Source: Streptomyces sp. TG1A-8 (GTDB lineage Bacteria > Actinomycetota > Actinomycetes > Streptomycetales > Streptomycetaceae). Taken from it: a stretch of DNA of 64,000 nt. A program made the position numbers and the translations under genes. The DNA is taken from the NCBI RefSeq assembly GCF_030499535.1, contig NZ_JASTLB010000001.1:4836001-4900000 (forward strand). The letters are read 5' to 3'. The notes below the pieces were generated by a model. It did not search any database. It saw nothing but the letters and a program-made list of their open reading frames with translations, and was not told the DNA's origin. Positions 30,647-38,392 of this stretch are shown here, one piece after another; positions within the stretch are counted from its first letter, which is position 1, and every line of letters begins with the position of its first letter.

Positions 30647-30679
30647 AGGGGCGGCACCCTGTGCGGGGGTGCCGCCCCT
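30647..30679 (+). terminator. ppdK terminator, interrupted locus of an insertion
   Basis: 13-bp perfect stem (AGGGGCGGCACCC / GGGTGCCGCCCCT) with a 7-base loop, 100 bases after the ppdK stop. The right half of this hairpin is part of the 31-bp direct repeat that recurs at 38256, so the element inserted here and kept the terminator intact at the left end. Confidence 0.85.
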
Positions 30680-30685
30680 TCGCGC
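30655..30685. repeat. attL: left copy of the 31-bp att core
   Basis: Identical to 38256-38286. Begins CACCCTGTGCGGGGGTGCCG and ends CCTTCGCGC; sequences diverge on both sides. The ppdK-proximal flank completes the terminator hairpin. Confidence 0.85.
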
Positions 30686-31005
30686 ATCGTCTGCGGAGAC
30701 TGTCAAGCTACGTCGCTGAACAGGTAAAACGCCGTTTGCTGGCGTTGGCTGCCGTTGAACCTGCGTGATGCCGTTGTGCCCTCGTTGTGCCCTCCGTATG
30801 GGGCTGAGTCCCGTCACGAGCCGTCGCCAAAGGGGTCCCGCACCGATTGGCATCCCCTAGATGGCGGGCAGATGAGCACCGCTTTAGGAGTTCTGTCCGA
30901 CGTCTTCAGCAGTCGGTTGAGGCGAAGCTCGAGCTGATGCCTACGACTGCCCGAGGTTGCTGGCGTCCGGCGCTGTTGATGTCAGGTACCCCCGCCTGGT
31001 TCGGG
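30686..31005. other. Left end of the element without a clear gene
   Basis: 320 bases downstream of attL. Contains two direct copies of GTGCCCT 11 bases apart (30776-30793), possible integrase arm sites, and CTGTCCGACGTCTT at 30893-30906, which recurs at 32195-32208. The only short reading frames (for example 21 codons from 30872) have no protein-like features. Confidence 0.5.
30776..30793 (+). promoter_or_regulatory. Candidate integrase arm-type sites, left
   Basis: GTGCCCT-N4-GTGCCCT, 91 bases inside attL. The same pair with the same 11-base period and orientation stands at 38191-38208 inside attR. Paired short direct repeats flanking the core are typical of tyrosine-integrase arm sites; the assignment is an inference. 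Confidence 0.4.
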
Positions 31006-31203: not shown

Positions 31204-31327
31204 GCCCTCACCCTACGGCTGGCCTGGGCGGCATGACCTCTTCGTCCCGAACTACCGGCTGGACGGTCATTGCGGTCCAGCACCCAGGTCGTGGGGTCTT
31301 CGACGGCCTTTGGTGGTCGGTTGCGGT

Positions 31328-31370
31328 TGCGGTGGTTGCTGTACTCCGCTGCTGTACAGCAACCACCGCA
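31328..31370. repeat. Perfect 17-bp inverted repeat between divergent genes
   Basis: Arms TGCGGTGGTTGCTGTAC (31328-31344) and its exact complement (31354-31370) around a 9-base loop. It lies upstream of both the leftward small gene and the rightward unknown gene, so it is placed like an operator or a promoter-proximal hairpin rather than a terminator. Confidence 0.8.
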
Positions 31371-31425
31371 GAAGCCCAGAGACGGCCTCAGGTCGGCGAA
31401 CGTCTACGTCTCTACGATGCAGGCC

Positions 31426-32073
31426 ATGGGGACATCTGATTCCGCACCGCTCATACGCGCCTGTTGGCTTTCATGGCTTGCGGTCGAGACTGTCGATCAG
31501 GCGGAGGTAGTGAAGGCCCTCGGCTTGACGGAGGTACAGGAGACGAGCTGGGCCGAGGGTGTGGCACTCATCGACGAGGTGGCGCACGACGGGGATGAGC
31601 CGTTCTCCACCGTCGTAGTCACGCCGCCCATGCAGGGGTGGACCCTGGTCGTCGGACCGTACTTCGGCCTGCCGTATACCCAGCAGACGGCGCACGTCAC
31701 CAGCCTGTGCCGAGATTTGAGCGCGGTCTTCGGTAAGGCCCAACTCTTCTTCCACAGTCAACAGAACGACGGAGAGGCGTGGCTGATCGCCGAAGGCGGA
31801 CGGATTCTCAGGCGCTGGATCAGTGAGTACCCGGAGTTCGCCATGGGCGAGCCGTTCGGCGTGGAGCGACGGCTCCTCGATGCCTACGGAATCACGGGCA
31901 AGCCCGAGGATCTCGATCCCGACAGCGACCTGGCCGGCGACTGGGCAGCCACTTGGGGGGATTGCTGGGCCACGACGGTCGCGGAGGAATCAAGCATCGA
32001 TCCCACTAGCGCCGCTGCCGACACAGGTTCGATCAGCAGCATGCTGGTGGCAGCCGCTCCGACTTTCGAGTAG
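31426..32073 (+). CDS. Hypothetical protein of the integrated element
   Basis: 215 residues from ATG 31426 (an in-frame ATG lies at 31417; neither has a good ribosome site). Acidic, mixed alpha/beta, with a conspicuous block FGKAQLFFHSQQNDGEAWL IAEGG and then RRWISEYPEFAMGEPFGVER, LDAYGITGKPEDLDPDSD. From memory, similar hypothetical proteins occur in other Streptomyces genomes, often as strain-specific genes. No signal peptide or membrane segment. I do not know its function. It is the first gene of the rightward set that continues with the TCD1-like, ATPase and subtilase genes, but a 357-base gap separates them. Confidence 0.7.
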   Translation: MGTSDSAPLIRACWLSWLAVETVDQAEVVKALGLTEVQETSWAEGVALIDEVAHDGDEPFSTVVVTPPMQGWTLVVGPYFGLPYTQQTAHVTSLCRDLSAVFGKAQLFFHSQQNDGEAWLIAEGGRILRRWISEYPEFAMGEPFGVERRLLDAYGITGKPEDLDPDSDLAGDWAATWGDCWATTVAEESSIDPTSAAADTGSISSMLVAAAPTFE

Positions 32074-32387: not shown

Positions 32388-32430
32388 CTTTCGGTCATTG
32401 CGCGATAATCGGCCAAACCCATAGGATGTT

Positions 32431-32823
32431 TTGACTCATCCCTCCGATGAAGACTCTCAGTGCGAGATCATCGAGCTGCAATTGATCAGCCACATGGGGG
32501 CGGATATGTACAAAGCGGTCAAAATCGACGGTAGCGAGTCGGAGTTCCTGGTTGAGGTCACCCCCCTCGCCGAGCAATCAAAGATTCTTCGAGGACGAGG
32601 GACGCCAGAGCAGGCCTTGACCGGCCTGCGCCAAGTGGGAGATGCCATCGTTCAAACTTGCGAAGACGTGTCAGCGGCGATTCGCGAGCGCTTCGCCAAC
32701 ACTGCCCCGAACGAGTTGGAGGTCAAGTTCGGGGTATCCCTCAGTGGGGAGGGGGGTGTCCCCTTGGTGGGCAAAGTCAAGGCTGACTCGACCTTCGAGG
32801 TCAGAGCGCGCTGGACTCGCTGA
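32431..32823 (+). CDS. Trypsin-co-occurring domain 1-like (CU044_2847 family) protein
   Basis: 130 residues. Start TTG 32431 follows AGGATG closely; the next in-frame ATG is at 32494. The N-terminal half is a small beta-rich part (VKIDGSESEFLVEVTP); a helix follows (TPEQALTGLRQVGDAIVQ) and then the block NELEVKFGVSLSGEGG and KADSTFEVRARW. This helix plus ELEVKFG...FEVRARW pattern is that of the CU044_2847 family, described as a trypsin-co-occurring domain in actinobacterial NTPase-protease conflict systems. It lies 107 bases upstream of the AAA+ ATPase, same strand. The family is thought to act as an adaptor or sensor near peptidases; no catalytic residues are seen. Assigned from motif memory, so the family name is likely but not certain. 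Confidence 0.7.
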   Translation: MTHPSDEDSQCEIIELQLISHMGADMYKAVKIDGSESEFLVEVTPLAEQSKILRGRGTPEQALTGLRQVGDAIVQTCEDVSAAIRERFANTAPNELEVKFGVSLSGEGGVPLVGKVKADSTFEVRARWTR

Positions 32824-32892
32824 CCAGCGATGACTCGGTGGTTCATGTAGGCGTCAAGAGTGAACTGCATGTACCAGTTGACGCATGTGGCC

Positions 32893-32922
32893 TGGTCAGA
32901 GGCGTGAACTAGTTGGTAACCT
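32893..32922 (+). promoter_or_regulatory. Possible promoter for a leaderless ATPase-subtilase transcript
   Basis: TGGTCA (32893-32898) and TAACCT (32917-32922) with an 18-base spacer; the A of the ATPase ATG is 7 bases beyond the -10. There is no ribosome-binding site before that ATG, which fits leaderless translation. Confidence 0.35.
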
Positions 32923-32929
32923 ACGCGGC

Positions 32930-34117
32930 ATGAGTAAGCCGGAGGATGGCAGCTGGTCGGGCCTGAGCGACACTGAACACGCACTGCTTGAGCTGATGTC
33001 GGCTGCGCTGAAGGCAGACGAGCGGGCCGCGCAGGAACTATGCCGACGGTGGGTGCGGAAGCCTCCAACAGTCACAGGTCATGCAGTCGCTCTCCGGGCA
33101 GAGCTGAGGGCTTTGCTCACAGCTCTGCCGGGGCGCTCTCCTCTCCGTGGAGGCGCGGTACCTAACACTGACTGGAGGCCGTCGGCGGCCTCCGATTTGC
33201 CGAGAGACCCAGAAACTAACCAAACGTTGCTTCGCTTGGGTGAGCCGCCTACAAGTTCAGGGCCTGTGCTTGACGAGACTTGCAGGGCTCAAGTCGACAG
33301 AATTGTCGCTGAGCGCCCCCTACGCGAGCGTCTCATCGAAGTTGGCCTGCAGCCATCTCGCAGCCTTCTCTTGAGTGGCCCCCCAGGGGTGGGTAAGTCC
33401 ATGACTGCTGCGTACATCGCTGAGCAAATGAAGCAGCCGCTTCTTATCGTGGACCTGGCCGCCGTAATGTCGAGTTACTTGGGGCGGACTGGGCGCAACT
33501 TGAGAGCGGTACTTGATTACGCATCACAAACAGAGTGCGTTCTATTTATAGACGAGTTTGACGCTCTCGCGAAACGGCGAGACGACAACACGGACGTTGG
33601 CGAACTAAAACGGTTGGTTAACGTCTTGCTGTTGGAACTCGATCGGTGGCCTGCTGGAAGCTTTTTGGTCGCTGCCACAAATCACCTAGAGCTGGTTGAT
33701 GCCGCTATCGCAAGACGCTTCGATGTAAAAGTCGAGATGCCTATGCCTGAATGTGAGCAGCGGAAAAATTTGCTAGCTCAAATTCCCGTAGTAGTCGCTG
33801 CGGGTGTTGGCGCAGATTGTATTTCTTTGCTAGCGCTCGCAACTGAAGGAAAGTCGCATTCCGATATCGTCAAGTTCGTGAGTGGCCTGGCTCGTGAAGT
33901 GATCATTCAAGACGGGAACCTGGAGAAGTTCTCAGAGCGGATCGTAGAATACGCGATGGTCACGCTTCGTGAACAGTCGAAGTCGGATTCAGAAACTCGA
34001 TCTCAGATCATCCGTCTTGCCTATCAATCACTCGGTTACTCGCAACGAAAGATCGCCAGCATTCTCGGTGTAAGTCACCCGACAGTGAGTCGAGCCTTGG
34101 CGTCGCAGGAAAAATAA
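32930..34117 (+). CDS. AAA+ ATPase, IetA-like, with C-terminal helix-turn-helix
   Basis: 395 residues, no signal or membrane segment. A helical, variable N-terminus (1-110) precedes a classical AAA+ core: Walker A GPPGVGKS at 150-157, pore-loop-like SSYLGRTGRN, Walker B VLFIDEFD at 204-211, sensor-1 Asn in AATN (251) and Arg-finger pair in AIARRFD (262-263), the spastin/FtsH/26S-like group. The C-terminus (370-391, YSQRKIASILGVSHPTVSRAL) is a helix-turn-helix, which suggests DNA binding or autoregulation. The subtilase gene follows 31 bases later. Adjacent AAA+ ATPase plus subtilase is the composition of IetAS, known from plasmid incompatibility and validated as anti-phage. GC and codon use are clearly lower than in the flanks. 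Confidence 0.88.
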   Translation: MSKPEDGSWSGLSDTEHALLELMSAALKADERAAQELCRRWVRKPPTVTGHAVALRAELRALLTALPGRSPLRGGAVPNTDWRPSAASDLPRDPETNQTLLRLGEPPTSSGPVLDETCRAQVDRIVAERPLRERLIEVGLQPSRSLLLSGPPGVGKSMTAAYIAEQMKQPLLIVDLAAVMSSYLGRTGRNLRAVLDYASQTECVLFIDEFDALAKRRDDNTDVGELKRLVNVLLLELDRWPAGSFLVAATNHLELVDAAIARRFDVKVEMPMPECEQRKNLLAQIPVVVAAGVGADCISLLALATEGKSHSDIVKFVSGLAREVIIQDGNLEKFSERIVEYAMVTLREQSKSDSETRSQIIRLAYQSLGYSQRKIASILGVSHPTVSRALASQEK

Positions 34118-34148
34118 CGACACGTAGGTAATTTCCCGGGGGGGAATA

Positions 34149-36473
34149 ATGAATCGGAAGACAGGCGGGCGAATACTCGTCGGAGGCGAGCAGATGTCCG
34201 AAATGATTGATCGAGTTTCAGGAGGGGGAAATAAGTTCTATCCATTCTCCATGGAAGAGACCAGGGAAATTCTTGGTCCCCAAGCACGATCACTCCGTGA
34301 CTCTGCAGTGCAGATTGATCCGTTACTGCGGGCTGAACATGTAGTCTTCGAGGCCACTCTGTTGCCAAACTTTCTGGCTAACAGTTACTTCCCGGACCGT
34401 CTTGTAAGGCTGCTAGGTCTCACTCCCCTCGGGTCTCGCCCGGCTACGGGGGACTTAACACTTCGCACTGGCACCACACCCGATGTTCCCACTAAATCGC
34501 TGATCGTCGCTGGCGACGATGCTAGCCTGAGTCGCTTGGCCCATATGCTTGAGGGCGGCGACCTGAACCGTGTCGAAAAGGCGGCTGCAGAGGAACTGCG
34601 TCAGTTCTCGCAGATTAACCTGCCGCGTCGCGAGGAAGTTCTGCGGGATTCCCGGGTAGACGACGGTGCTTCAGGCCGTGATCGTGTGGTCTATGAGGCG
34701 GTCCTTCACCCTGACCCCGATAATCCTGGGTCGGGCCGTCAGCCGATGAATAATCGACTTTTCCATAAGTTTGAAGAATACATCGCGAGTCTGGGTGGGG
34801 AAGTAGCGGCTACGCGTCGCGATGTAGTTGGAGGGTTGACGTTCGTCCCTGTGCTGTTGCCCGAGGGACAAGCGGAGCAGGCTGCTGCTTTCAATCCCCT
34901 TCGTTCGATTCGGCGTATGCCGCGGATTCGTCCTGTGCCTACATCGCCGCTCCGGTCAGCGCCGCGGGTAGGACGGCCGGCGCCTCCAGCCGCAGACGCG
35001 ACTGCGCCCGAGGTGCTTATATTTGATGCCGGAATAGATGAGGATGGCGACTACTTCGCTGGTTCTGCTCAGCAAGTGCATTTGACAAGTGAAAATCCCG
35101 AATACGGCTGCATCGAGCATGGCAGTGCTGTTACGGGGGCGGTCCTTTACGGGAATGTGCAACCGGGGGAGAAATTGTCGAAGCCGCCGGTCAGAGCCAC
35201 TCATTACAGGTGCATTCCGGGACCAGCCGAGGACGGAACAGAACTTTACTGGCTTCTGGATCAGATTCAGAAAACGGTAGCGGAAAACGACGCTATGATT
35301 GTGAATCTTAGCCTCGGCCCGGAAGTGTCCGTAGACGATGGAGAGCCGCACCGCTGGACGGCTGTCCTCGATAGCCTGGCCTATGAGCGGGACATTCTTT
35401 TCGTGACCGCCGTTGGGAATAACGGTGAAGCCAGCGATAACCGAATAATGGTTCCGGCTGATATGGTTAATGGGCTTAGTGTCGGAGCGTGTGATCGCCC
35501 CTATCCTGAGGCATTGTGGACACGTGCACCCTATAGTTGCGTGGGTCCAGGCCGACCTGGAGCCCTGATACAGCCGACGGTCGTGGCGTTCGGAGGCGAC
35601 GACCAGCTGCCATTCGCTCGGCTAAGGGCCGACGGAAGGATTTCATACGACTGCGGGACAAGTTACGCAGCGCCTCTGGTTTCGCACGAGCTGGCTGTGT
35701 TGTCTGGTGAGCTCGGGGACCGGGCAAGCGCTTCAGCACTGAAAGCATTTGCCGTTCATTTCGCAGAATCGCATGCTGACCCGGACGTGAGTACAGGGCA
35801 TGGACGGCTTATTAGCGACCATGCTTCCGCACTTTGGTGTGACAGTAATGAAGTCACTGTCATGTACCAGGCGTCCGTTGAGCGGGACCAGGTCCTGGGA
35901 TTCCAGCTTCCGGTACCAGAAGGTCTCGACAGAGGGATGGTGAAAGTTAGGTGGACGCTCGCCTATGCGTCACCCACAGATCCGACTGAGGCGGTGGAGT
36001 ATACGGAATCTGGGCTTGAGTTCACGCTCAGGCCGCATGCGGCAATCTACTCCTTTCGTGATCCGGAAGGCTCATCAGGTGCCGTGAAAGTCAATATTCG
36101 TGATGAACCGGAGCGGGTAGCGGAGTTGGAGGCTGACGGCTGGATCCGCAGCAAGAATCCAGTGTCCCGTTCTCAAGGGAAAGGGCCCAAAGAATCTGAG
36201 GCCAGAAGGCGACGTGGGGGGAAGTGGGAGACGGTTATGCAGGGGCAGGACCGTCTCCGAGCGAAGAGCCTCTGGCTTCCTAGGCTGGATATCGAGTATT
36301 TGACGCGGGCTGGTGGCATCCTCACTCGGGGTGCAGCGCCGGTGGACTTCACGCTGCTGGTTACCGTAACGTCCCTTTCCGGGGTTCCGGTTTATCAGCT
36401 GGCGCAGGCGGAGTTCCCGGTTCTTTCAGTGCTTCCTGTGCCCGTCTCGGCTCAGGTGCGAGCGCAAACCTGA
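34149..36473 (+). CDS. Cytoplasmic S8 subtilisin-like protease, IetS-like
   Basis: 774 residues. Start ATG 34149 follows a run of seven G; a second ATG at 34194 is possible. No signal peptide, so it should act in the cytoplasm. Residues 1-285 are a domain I do not recognise, with a basic Pro-rich linker at about 250-285. The protease domain has Asp293 (LIFDAGID), His324 (EHGSAVTG), oxyanion Asn424 or 425 (AVGNNGE) and Ser505 (CGTSYAAPL), so the triad is complete. A C-terminal region of about 200 residues follows, beta-rich at first. Codons 59 and 103 are TTA, which in Streptomyces needs the bldA tRNA. Function as effector of an IetAS-type defence pair, gated by the upstream ATPase, is inferred. 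Confidence 0.88.
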   Translation: MNRKTGGRILVGGEQMSEMIDRVSGGGNKFYPFSMEETREILGPQARSLRDSAVQIDPLLRAEHVVFEATLLPNFLANSYFPDRLVRLLGLTPLGSRPATGDLTLRTGTTPDVPTKSLIVAGDDASLSRLAHMLEGGDLNRVEKAAAEELRQFSQINLPRREEVLRDSRVDDGASGRDRVVYEAVLHPDPDNPGSGRQPMNNRLFHKFEEYIASLGGEVAATRRDVVGGLTFVPVLLPEGQAEQAAAFNPLRSIRRMPRIRPVPTSPLRSAPRVGRPAPPAADATAPEVLIFDAGIDEDGDYFAGSAQQVHLTSENPEYGCIEHGSAVTGAVLYGNVQPGEKLSKPPVRATHYRCIPGPAEDGTELYWLLDQIQKTVAENDAMIVNLSLGPEVSVDDGEPHRWTAVLDSLAYERDILFVTAVGNNGEASDNRIMVPADMVNGLSVGACDRPYPEALWTRAPYSCVGPGRPGALIQPTVVAFGGDDQLPFARLRADGRISYDCGTSYAAPLVSHELAVLSGELGDRASASALKAFAVHFAESHADPDVSTGHGRLISDHASALWCDSNEVTVMYQASVERDQVLGFQLPVPEGLDRGMVKVRWTLAYASPTDPTEAVEYTESGLEFTLRPHAAIYSFRDPEGSSGAVKVNIRDEPERVAELEADGWIRSKNPVSRSQGKGPKESEARRRRGGKWETVMQGQDRLRAKSLWLPRLDIEYLTRAGGILTRGAAPVDFTLLVTVTSLSGVPVYQLAQAEFPVLSVLPVPVSAQVRAQT

Positions 36474-36515
36474 TCGGGCCATCGCGGGCGGTGGAGCGGC
36501 TTTGGGCTGGAGCTG

Positions 36516-36626
36516 CTTTGGCGCGAGTGATCATGGCCCCGTAAGCTTGCGGCGCGTCGGGCAGTCTGTGGACCTGCCCCGTAAAGCACGACGTTGGGGC
36601 CATGATCTGCGAGGCTCGCGCCAAAG
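36516..36626. repeat. Long interrupted hairpin after the subtilase gene
   Basis: Two 12-bp perfect stem blocks, CTTTGGCGCGAG (36516-36527) with 36615-36626 and GATCATGGCCCC (36529-36540) with 36596-36607, are separated by a 1/7-base bulge. The apical 55 bases contain another 6-bp stem (GGGCAG / CTGCCC). It could end the ATPase-subtilase transcript, or be a palindromic mobile-element remnant. The IS5-like element begins 11 bases further on. Confidence 0.7.
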
Positions 36627-36636
36627 TGGCTGCCTA

Positions 36637-37502
36637 AGACTATGTCCTATGTGGTGGGCTTGAGGAGTCGCTTGTAGCAGCAGAGGACTGCGGCAAGCCC
36701 CAGAAAGGCCAGGTAGTTGCGGGGATTGCGTTCGTAGCGGTGGTTGAGCCGACGGTAGCCGGTCAGCCAGGACATGGTCCGTTCGATCACCCAACGACGC
36801 CGGCCCAGCCGTTCGCTGGACTCGATGCCCTTGCGGGCGATGCGGACGCCGATGCGCTTGCCGCGTACCCATTTCCGCAGCTCAGGGACGTCGTATGCCT
36901 TGTCGGCATGCAGGCGCTGGGGCTTGAAGTACCGGCCGTTGTGCGGGTCGTGTCTCGTTAGGTGACCGAGCACCATGGGCTTCAGGGCCTGGCTGTCGTG
37001 GACGTTGGCCGCGGAGATGCCGACGAGAAGGGGCAGTCCCTTCGCGTCCGACAGGATGTGCATCTTGGAACCCGGCTTGCCCCGGTCCACGGGACTCGGA
37101 CCTGTGTGTTCGCCCCTTTTTAGCCCTCACGTGGGCGGAGTCGAGGACGACACGGGAAAGATCGAGGAGGTCCGTGTCGTCGAGCCGGCGCAGGATCTCC
37201 TCATGGAGCCGGCCCCACACACCGGCCCGCGACCAGATCACGAAACGGCGATGCGCAGTGGACTTCGATATACCGAAGCACGGTGGCAGTGCCCGCCAGG
37301 CGCAGCCGCTGACCAGCACATAGATGATCGCGGCAAACAGCGTCTCATCAGGCGTGTCCTGCGTCCCGCCACCCTGCGGCCGCACCTTTGACGGCGGGAT
37401 CAGCGGCCTCGCGATCTCCCACAGCCCGTCCGGAACAATCCAACTCCACGTACCCCGCCCCATACGCAGCTCAACGAGCCATCACCACATAGGACACGGT
37501 CT
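36637..37502. mobile_element. IS5-family insertion sequence, 866 bp
   Basis: Ends are 20-bp inverted repeats, AGACTATGTCCTATGTGGTG at the left and AGACCGTGTCCTATGTGGTG read from the right, 18 of 20 identical. A TA stands on both outer sides (CCTA left, TAAG right), fitting the 2-3-bp TA-type target duplication of the IS427 group. It carries one transposase in two overlapping frames. The right end cuts into the integrase coding region. Confidence 0.88.
36647..37463 (-). CDS. IS5-family DDE transposase in two frames
   Basis: First frame from ATG 37463: WSWIVPDGLWEIARPLIPPS, a DUF4096-type helical N-terminus (WRALPPCFGISKSTAHRRF) and the first Asp in VVLDSAHVRAKKG. The second frame continues with GEHTGPSPVDRGKPGSKMHI, NVHDSQALKPM (second Asp), and WVIERTMSWLTGYRRL (the DDE Glu). 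The switch needs +1 (or -2) at AAAAAGGGG, positions 37121-37113 on the minus strand. IS427-group elements often use programmed frameshifting, so this may be functional; a simple mutation is also possible. Total length about 270 residues, normal for the group. Confidence 0.85.
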
Positions 37503-38199
37503 TAAGCCGCCTGAAGTGTTCTATCCGGAGATTCACCCGCTCGACCCGGAGGCGGTGAAGGCGCTGATCGCCACAACGTCCCCCCGGTATCGGGCGCTGG
37601 TGCGGCAGGCGGCTTCCACCGGACTCCGCCAAGGCGAGCTGTTCGGCCTGGAAGACGAGGAGCCGGCCGGGATCGTCGCGGTCAAGCAGCAGTTGATCGG
37701 CCCCGACAAGGGTGTGCCGTACCTGGGCGAGCTGAAGACCAAGCAGAGTTACAGAGCAGTGCCTCAAGGACAGTCTGTCGTCAACGAGATCGAGCTACAC
37801 CGGAAGGCTTTCCCGCCCAGGGTCGTGCACATCGAGGACCGGACGAACCCGCGTAAGCCAGTGTGGCGGCATGCTCGGCTGCTGTACACGAGCGAGACGG
37901 GCGGAGCGATCCGGCGCGGCAGCTGGGCGAAGGTGTGGGCCCGTAACATCAAGCGGGCGAACGCCTACTTGGCGAAATCCGGCAGCAAGGTACGCGTCCC
38001 CGCGGGCACCACGCTTCACGACCTGCGCCACTTCTACGCCTCCGTGCTGATCAAGAACGGGGCGACGCCGAAGCAGGTTCAGATGCGTCTCGGCCACGCC
38101 AAGCCATCGATCACGCTGAACGTCTACACGCATCTGTGGGAGGCGGAGGCGGACCGGACCGCCGACATGATGGAAGCTGCCCTGAACGATGTGCCCTGA
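37503..38199 (+). pseudogene. Tyrosine integrase, catalytic half only
   Basis: About 232 codons from the IS right end to the stop. Present are Arg in TGLRQGELFGL, the LGELKTKQSYRAVP block, the HxxR box LHDLRHFYAS, LGHAKPSITL and the nucleophile Tyr in NVYTHLW, so all catalytic residues of a phage-type integrase are there. The arm-binding and core-binding N-terminal domains (about 150-180 residues) are missing; the sequence left of the IS is not integrase-like, so a deletion went along with the insertion. It lies 57 bases from attR, the usual place. The stretch GLEDEEPAGIVAVKQQL also seems to lack residues found in relatives. Inactive unless a start was created inside the IS. Confidence 0.85.
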
Positions 38200-38255: not shown

Positions 38256-38286
38256 CACCCTGTGCGGGGGTGCCGCCCCTTCGCGC
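38256..38286. repeat. attR: right copy of the 31-bp att core
   Basis: Identical over 31 bp to 30655-30685. The left flank here (GTCAGCCGTA) cannot pair to form the terminator hairpin, unlike at attL. Beyond it normal high-GC chromosomal sequence resumes. Confidence 0.85.
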
Positions 38287-38392
38287 GCCCGCCGGCGGTG
38301 CGGGCCACACACGGCCGCAACACCCCTTTCGTAATCACGGTGCATGGTTGATCGTTGGGCCGTGCATCGATGACGAACGCCAGGGGGTACAG

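Follow-up and report, generated by a model that had tools for sequence, protein, structure and literature searches.

IetA/IetS of pTiC58 and SgiA/SgiT of SGI1 have been described as stability and incompatibility systems, and in the sgiAT pair of SGI1 the subtilase is the toxin and the ATPase is the antitoxin (PMC5006074). For the mycoplasma AAA-ATPase/subtilisin-like pair A132/T133, deletion of the ATPase alone was reported to be lethal in a minimised cell; toxin–antitoxin action was confirmed in Escherichia coli, and the data from E. coli and Bacillus subtilis were called rather inconclusive overall (PMC8562856). In isolates, phage resistance was associated with one Pf phage that carries IetAS; a lysogenisation test with this phage yielded no lysogens, and in 2025 the mechanism of action of IetAS was called unknown (PMC11878078). 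Trypco1, named in 2020 by Kaur and colleagues, neighbours trypsin-like peptidases in VMAP ternary conflict systems (PMC7159879) and was called an adapter domain in a later paper (PMC10907252). These statements, and our comparisons with published systems below, draw on excerpts of the cited papers. Here we describe a 64,000-nucleotide stretch of Streptomyces sp. TG1A-8 (contig NZ_JASTLB010000001.1, positions 4,836,001 to 4,900,000; hereafter the window), in which a small Trypco1 gene stands upstream of an ietA–ietS pair (Table 1).

The locus resembles each of these systems in part. As in IetAS of PADLOC (IteA/IteS of NCBIfam), an AAA+ ATPase is followed by an intracellular subtilase and both proteins match the profiles; however, both are below the equivalog cut-offs, and the window carries the extra Trypco1. 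The pairs of pTiC58 and SGI1 likewise combine an ATPase, there the antitoxin, with a subtilisin-like toxin on mobile elements, whereas the excerpts describe no Trypco1 with them. A132/T133 is also a two-gene ATPase/subtilase arrangement but is described as a gene pair; this comparison and that with pTiC58 and SGI1 were made by description only. The VMAP ternary systems place a small Trypco1 beside a serine protease and an NTPase, but their protease is trypsin-like and their partners are MoxR, vWA and VMAP proteins, whereas the window has a subtilase and IetA (PMC7159879). The single mention of subtilisin in that paper concerns NucA systems and not Trypco1. In the window, the protease near Trypco1 is of the PF00082 family; no trypsin-like peptidase was found among the window's open reading frames (ORFs) that were scanned, and no MoxR, vWA or VMAP protein among the 20 hand-picked ORFs (20495-47884) scanned with Pfam.

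Linkage of Trypco1 to one IetAS clade

The upstream gene matched PF19493 (E = 1.5e-14; 54.8 bits against a cut-off of 24.6) and also NF041216; its start codon was picked from an alignment of relatives. It adjoins ietA and was absent from an earlier note on this DNA, which had described the ATPase–protease pair alone. We scanned 139 loci, near-copies and three weak loci (L206-L208) included, with a broad profile that contained the eight linked proteins. Trypco1 was detected in 8 loci, and the next score was noise (E = 1.4); it was not found in the other 131, of which 21 have less than 1 kb upstream of ietA or no ietA. The eight loci form one clade in the IetS tree of 71 rows (support 99), so labelled that a single change accounts for the presence of the gene. 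PF19493 itself matches all eight members (E <= 0.001), and in each the gene lies upstream of ietA on the same strand. Within the clade, the window groups with S. lanatus and Streptomyces sp. V4I2, followed by S. tricolor, S. niveus and S. atriruber, while Microbacterium ureisolvens and a viral contig are the deeper members. Linkage has been maintained across genera, from Streptomyces to Microbacterium, and on a viral contig, at IetS identities of 43-46%. A Streptomyces genome (G105) carries the S. atriruber locus L044 without a mismatch over 5325 bases. Clade member L121 lies on an IMG/VR contig on which five of the eight scanned ORFs match PHROGs, including an anti-repressor and a single-stranded DNA-binding protein; such a phage-like contig fits superinfection defence by a temperate phage.

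When placed among 38 Trypco1 proteins, the eight linked ones grouped together (93/97, with a long-branch warning), and their inner groups were the same as those in the IetS tree. The DNA shared with the two closest relatives comprises just the three genes, extending over 32403-36481 for L041 and 32461-36473 for L045. Using the Nei-Gojobori method, the ratios of nonsynonymous to synonymous substitution (dN/dS) against L041/L045 were 0.03/0.05 for Trypco1, 0.08/0.10 for IetA and 0.04/0.05 for IetS, and synonymous sites were close to saturation. These values indicate that all three genes are under purifying selection. As a control, 31 other Trypco1 loci (L234-L262, one per genome, plus L195 and L196 from the genome of the window itself) were searched with motif patterns. 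Neither an AAA nor a subtilase motif was present within 1.5 kb at any of the 31, and a trypsin-type motif was present at 9. A chance neighbourhood of Trypco1 was rejected by the clade-wide linkage, the shared DNA and this control set.

The IetA–IetS pair and its relatives

The adjacent AAA+ ATPase and subtilase genes of the earlier note were confirmed, and both frames are intact; the genes lie on the same strand with the ATPase first and are separated by 31 bp. An alternative in-frame ATG is present 45 bp upstream of the ietA start (ATG 32930), yet relatives align from 32930. IetA matched PF00004 (E = 3e-29) and PF13384 (E = 2.1e-07), and IetS matched PF00082 (E = 9.1e-22). As had been claimed, the ATPase has a complete motif set: D208, E209, N251, R262 and R263 are invariant in all 66 aligned IetA proteins, and positions G150-K156 are invariant or nearly so. 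We take these to be Walker B (D208-E209), sensor-1 (N251), the Arg-finger (R262/R263) and Walker A (G150-K156). The catalytic triad D293, H324 and S505 was likewise found intact, being invariant in all 63 aligned IetS proteins together with an oxyanion-type N424. Inspection by eye revealed no hydrophobic leader at the IetS N-terminus, in agreement with a protease that lacks a signal peptide. The low G+C content held as well, at 55.7% for ietA and 57.8% for ietS versus 69.6-77.8% in three flanking genes, and the C-terminal helix-turn-helix (HTH) attributed to the ATPase was recovered as HTH_23 at residues 354-390 (31.0 bits, cut-off 24.6).

The proposed IetAS identity was supported. The PADLOC profiles PDLC02196 (IetA, E = 5.8e-81) and PDLC02197 (IetS, E = 2.2e-38) match the window proteins, and the PADLOC IetS profiles match 63/63 IetS proteins scanned; however, both proteins fall far below the NCBIfam equivalog cut-offs (NF042959/NF042956, IteA/IteS), with 231 of 510 bits for IetA and 105.8 of 900 for IetS. 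In the IetS tree, the branch of L198, the one examined protein annotated as iteS, is very long. By these profile matches the window pair belongs to IetAS in the broad sense, as a divergent subfamily distant from L198. A distinct actinobacterial branch, also suggested earlier, does exist (14 rows, support 100), but the two features thought to mark it do not. HTH_23 matches 33 of the 66 IetA proteins, at most 14 of them from this branch, and the long N-terminal region of IetS can also be aligned in relatives found in other phyla and on plasmids and phages. The clade-specific insertions in IetA and IetS were small ones only and not decisive as markers.

The sister group of actinobacterial IetAS loci (L048, L049, L051-L054, L205) has the same IetA–IetS core; however, Trypco1 was not found there and other genes lie downstream of ietS. 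Two ORFs of about 323 and 301-321 amino acids (aa) directly downstream of ietS are shared by the sister loci, and the four of these downstream proteins that were scanned had no Pfam match. A third downstream ORF has a metallopeptidase-like motif and is annotated ImmA/IrrE in L006, which is on the same plasmid as L205. Accessory genes may be habitual in this part of the IetAS family.

The loci were drawn from GTDB genomes (best 80 of 243), 74 viral contigs, plasmids, phages and further genomes; 47 of the GTDB loci (L041-L087) match IetS over its whole length or much of it. Because pattern-based scans overlook relatives, the survey covers the family only in part. For the IetS tree, calculated by a quick method with Shimodaira–Hasegawa-like approximate likelihood ratio test (SH-aLRT) support, 123 sequences were thinned to 71 rows at 80% identity, with six Streptomyces rows force-kept; partial, broken or weak sequences were dropped beforehand (L075, L077-L079, L081, L082, L179, L184, L185, L201, L206-L208). 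The 63-row IetS alignment leaves out eight tree rows, namely L198, L169, L163, L172 and the annotated-record rows L007, L008, L009 and L199. Counting did not rely on the IetA profile at 1e-30, since it matches unrelated AAA proteins (60/61 genomes and all 14 controls). At E <= 1e-40, IetS of this kind is rare, being present in 3 of 150 Streptomyces genomes and 5 of 197 genomes of the class, the window's own counted in both. An IetS match was found in 76 plasmid records, and in 22 of them it covers 80% of the query or more. When the window's own genome was searched with IetA, the matches were the window gene and four weak AAA proteins (27-35% identity). The query P0003 had no tblastn match in plasmids or phages and, as a single query, none in viral contigs.

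Several individual loci were recorded separately. Complete IetAS-like pairs are present on Paenibacillus phage Dash (L008) and Enterobacter phage phiT5282H (L009), where the annotations read RecA-like protease or FtsH, and S8 peptidase or hypothetical protein. The record of Pf phage PfAC08 (L010, 216-3526) swaps the usual names in its notes, calling the ATPase IetS and the peptidase IetA. On a Paenarthrobacter aurescens plasmid (L201, 2778-3925), ISAau1 lies between ietA and a shortened ietS frame. A Shedu gene stands beside IetAS on an Acidovorax plasmid (L198), and IetAS is near multiubiquitin and ThiF-family genes on two unrelated plasmids, of Mycolicibacterium crocinum (L006) and Rhizobium leguminosarum (L199). 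At L047, a locus of the actinobacterial branch, a TIR-domain gene (PF13676, 10827-11450) follows ietS.

The AlphaFold2 model of IetS (predicted local distance difference test (pLDDT) 90.2, predicted template modelling score 0.91) consists of an N-terminal region, a unit at residues 179-256, the catalytic domain and a C-terminal beta domain. Subtilisin propeptides have the order strand-helix-strand-strand-helix-strand, and the same order is predicted for residues 179-256. In a Foldseek search with IetS, the best match was the pro-form of Tk-SP (3afg, E = 3.8e-20) and the third was the alkaline protease KP-43 (1wmd). We compared IetS with a profile of 18 I9 propeptide domains (20 picked of 33 listed matches, two of them without a readable sequence): residues 179-256 gave a probability of 5% (E = 0.0074) in a plausible register and residues 60-165 a probability of 0.1%. 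The Pfam I9 model had no match in IetS. We keep an I9-type propeptide in the N-terminal region as a hypothesis with marginal profile support.

The trypco1 and ietA genes are 106 bp apart. The inverted element ACCA-N16-TGGT is at the same place in 6 of the 8 clade loci (6/6 Streptomyces, 0/2 others); its chance in one shuffled region is 0.003-0.004, for a motif that was chosen after looking and for loci that are related. A TANNNT hexamer begins 12 or 13 nucleotides (nt) before the assumed ietA start in all eight. No promoter before ietA was flagged by a sigma-70 consensus scan. These elements are perhaps a leaderless ietA promoter with a candidate operator for the HTH of IetA itself.

The integrated island

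The pair had been placed in an integrated element, and this was borne out. The two copies of a direct repeat (31/31 identical, spacing 7601), the only two in the window by exact search, bound an island of 7.6 kb. The IS5-type inverted repeats of the insertion sequence (IS) at 36628-36656 and 37483-37511 are 86% complementary. The first ~63 codons of the integrase ORF are IS sequence, and its original N-terminal part is missing. Four of five related genomes are collinear with the window on both sides, on the left as far as 30679-30737 and on the right from 38307-38326 onward, and hold other DNA at the site (0.7, 1.1, 2.2 and 3.9 kb); the fifth matches on the right side alone. In those four gaps, blastn gave no match to IetAS genes and tblastx gave short, low-identity pieces only. 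Because of the repeats, the truncated integrase and the relatives without the pair at this site, the island is a real integrated element, probably immobilised. ARAGORN found no tRNA gene in the window.

A hypothetical ORF of the island is not assigned to the system. It is matched in 18 plasmid records (best 30.6% over 75%) but has no Pfam or PHROG match, and no tblastn match in 126 IetAS loci. Four relatives (L226, L228, L229, L230) carry varied DNA of 0.7 to 3.9 kb behind the pyruvate, phosphate dikinase (PPDK)-like gene, and this stretch looks like an insertion hotspot.

Table 1. Features of the three-gene locus and of the surrounding island, in window positions.
Feature	Position	Strand	Description	Evidence
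Trypco1 gene (proposed third component)	32506..32823	+	105 aa	PF19493, NF041216
IetA	32930..34117	+	395 aa; N-terminal region, AAA+ domain, C-terminal helix-turn-helix	PADLOC IetA, PF00004, PF13384
IetS	34149..36473	+	774 aa; long N-terminal region, subtilase domain (D293/H324/S505), C-terminal beta domain	PADLOC IetS, PF00082, AlphaFold2
ACCA-N16-TGGT inverted element (candidate operator)	32873..32896	+	between trypco1 and ietA
TAACCT, -10-like TANNNT hexamer	32917..32922	+	ends 7 nt before ietA ATG
Left copy of perfect 31-bp direct repeat (att-like)	30655..30685	+	overlaps hairpin after PPDK-like gene
Hypothetical ORF, not assigned to the system	31270..32073	+	in island	weak homologues on Streptomyces plasmids
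IS5-family insertion element	36628..37511	-	transposase in two frames; annotated IS5 family transposase	PF01609, PF13340
Tyrosine-integrase ORF	37324..38199	+	integrase domain at residues 73-271	PF00589 (4.4e-13), PHROG integrase (1.9e-29)
Right copy of 31-bp direct repeat (att-like)	38256..38286	+

Proposed function and competing explanations

Taking the gene content, the intact catalytic residues, the clade-specific Trypco1 linkage, the purifying selection and the integrated island as direct observations of this analysis, we propose that Trypco1, IetA and IetS form a three-gene cassette, a toxin–antitoxin-like (abortive) module of defence and element maintenance, with a probability of roughly 60%. 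We read the module as a protease-based abortive or addiction system because in homologous pairs the subtilase is the toxin and the ATPase the antitoxin. A defence function of the pair is plausible and anti-phage activity is inferred; for Trypco1, linkage and selection suggest a role. IetS, as an intracellular subtilase, would be kept latent by its own N-terminal region and by IetA, which would form an AAA+ ring and restrain the protease in an ATP-dependent manner. Through its C-terminal HTH, IetA would repress its own promoter at the inverted element upstream of ietA. Trypco1, as an adaptor or inhibitor acting at the protease, would set the trigger. Upon phage takeover or loss of the element, the restraint would be lost and IetS would digest cell proteins.

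Several results weigh against this proposal. Trypco1 is lacking in 63 of the 71 tree rows, 50 of them with at least 1 kb upstream, indicating that the IetAS core works without it. With 8 loci, the Trypco1 clade is small, and it has a single origin: the linkage is inherited and not repeatedly gained. Since weaker homology in L042-L044 continues to 36579-36637, i.e. 106-164 bp beyond the ietS stop, the right edge of the cassette is not equally sharp everywhere. The candidate operator is missing from two of the eight loci, and because of the 106-bp gap and a possible promoter of ietA itself, Trypco1 and ietA may not share one transcript. Finally, the Trypco1 model was poor (pLDDT 58.5), and the fold search with it gave no match at E <= 0.001.

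A rather unlikely alternative, though the strongest of those considered, is that the genes form a module of addiction or incompatibility by which the island is stabilised, and that protection from phage, if there is any, is incidental. The description of the pTiC58 and SGI1 homologues as stability and incompatibility systems points this way, as do the location on an integrated island and the 76 plasmid records with an IetS match. However, the integrase is truncated and yet the three genes are intact; in addition, one relative stands beside a Shedu gene and others are on phages, and a Pf phage-borne pair has been tied to phage resistance, though for one Pf phage and with no lysogens obtained (PMC11878078).

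It is improbable that the locus is a plain two-gene IetAS with Trypco1 as a linked passenger that has no role in the system. The many tree rows without the gene, the 106-bp gap with a possible separate promoter, and the abundance of the Trypco1 family in the genus (35/41 genomes) are what such a passenger would be consistent with. By contrast, the linkage is conserved across Streptomyces, Microbacterium and a viral contig, the DNA shared with L041 and L045 is confined to the three genes, selection is purifying, the linked Trypco1 proteins form their own group, and neither an AAA nor a subtilase motif lies near the 31 other Trypco1 loci examined. The truncated integrase, the IS insertion and a 4-residue Trypco1 deletion relative to the nearest relatives might suggest that the locus is a degraded remnant on a dead element, but this is very improbable given three open frames, intact catalytic residues and dN/dS well below 1.

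Beyond the cassette proposal, we put forward tentatively that Trypco1 may serve bacterial conflict systems in general as a protease-coupling module, without being bound to trypsin. It would here be an obligate third subunit that gates IetS together with IetA, and a tripartite IetAS would thus be linked to the VMAP-type ternary systems.

The IetAS pair and Trypco1 as a companion of trypsin-like proteases were both known; here, Trypco1 accompanies IetAS. In open-licence full texts, supplements being outside the search, no paper contained Trypco1 together with IetAS, or IetAS together with Streptomyces. A third gene in every examined member of one branch provides a handle on what restrains IetS. 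If Trypco1 binds IetS, this would also inform the role of Trypco1 in the conflict systems that contain trypsin.

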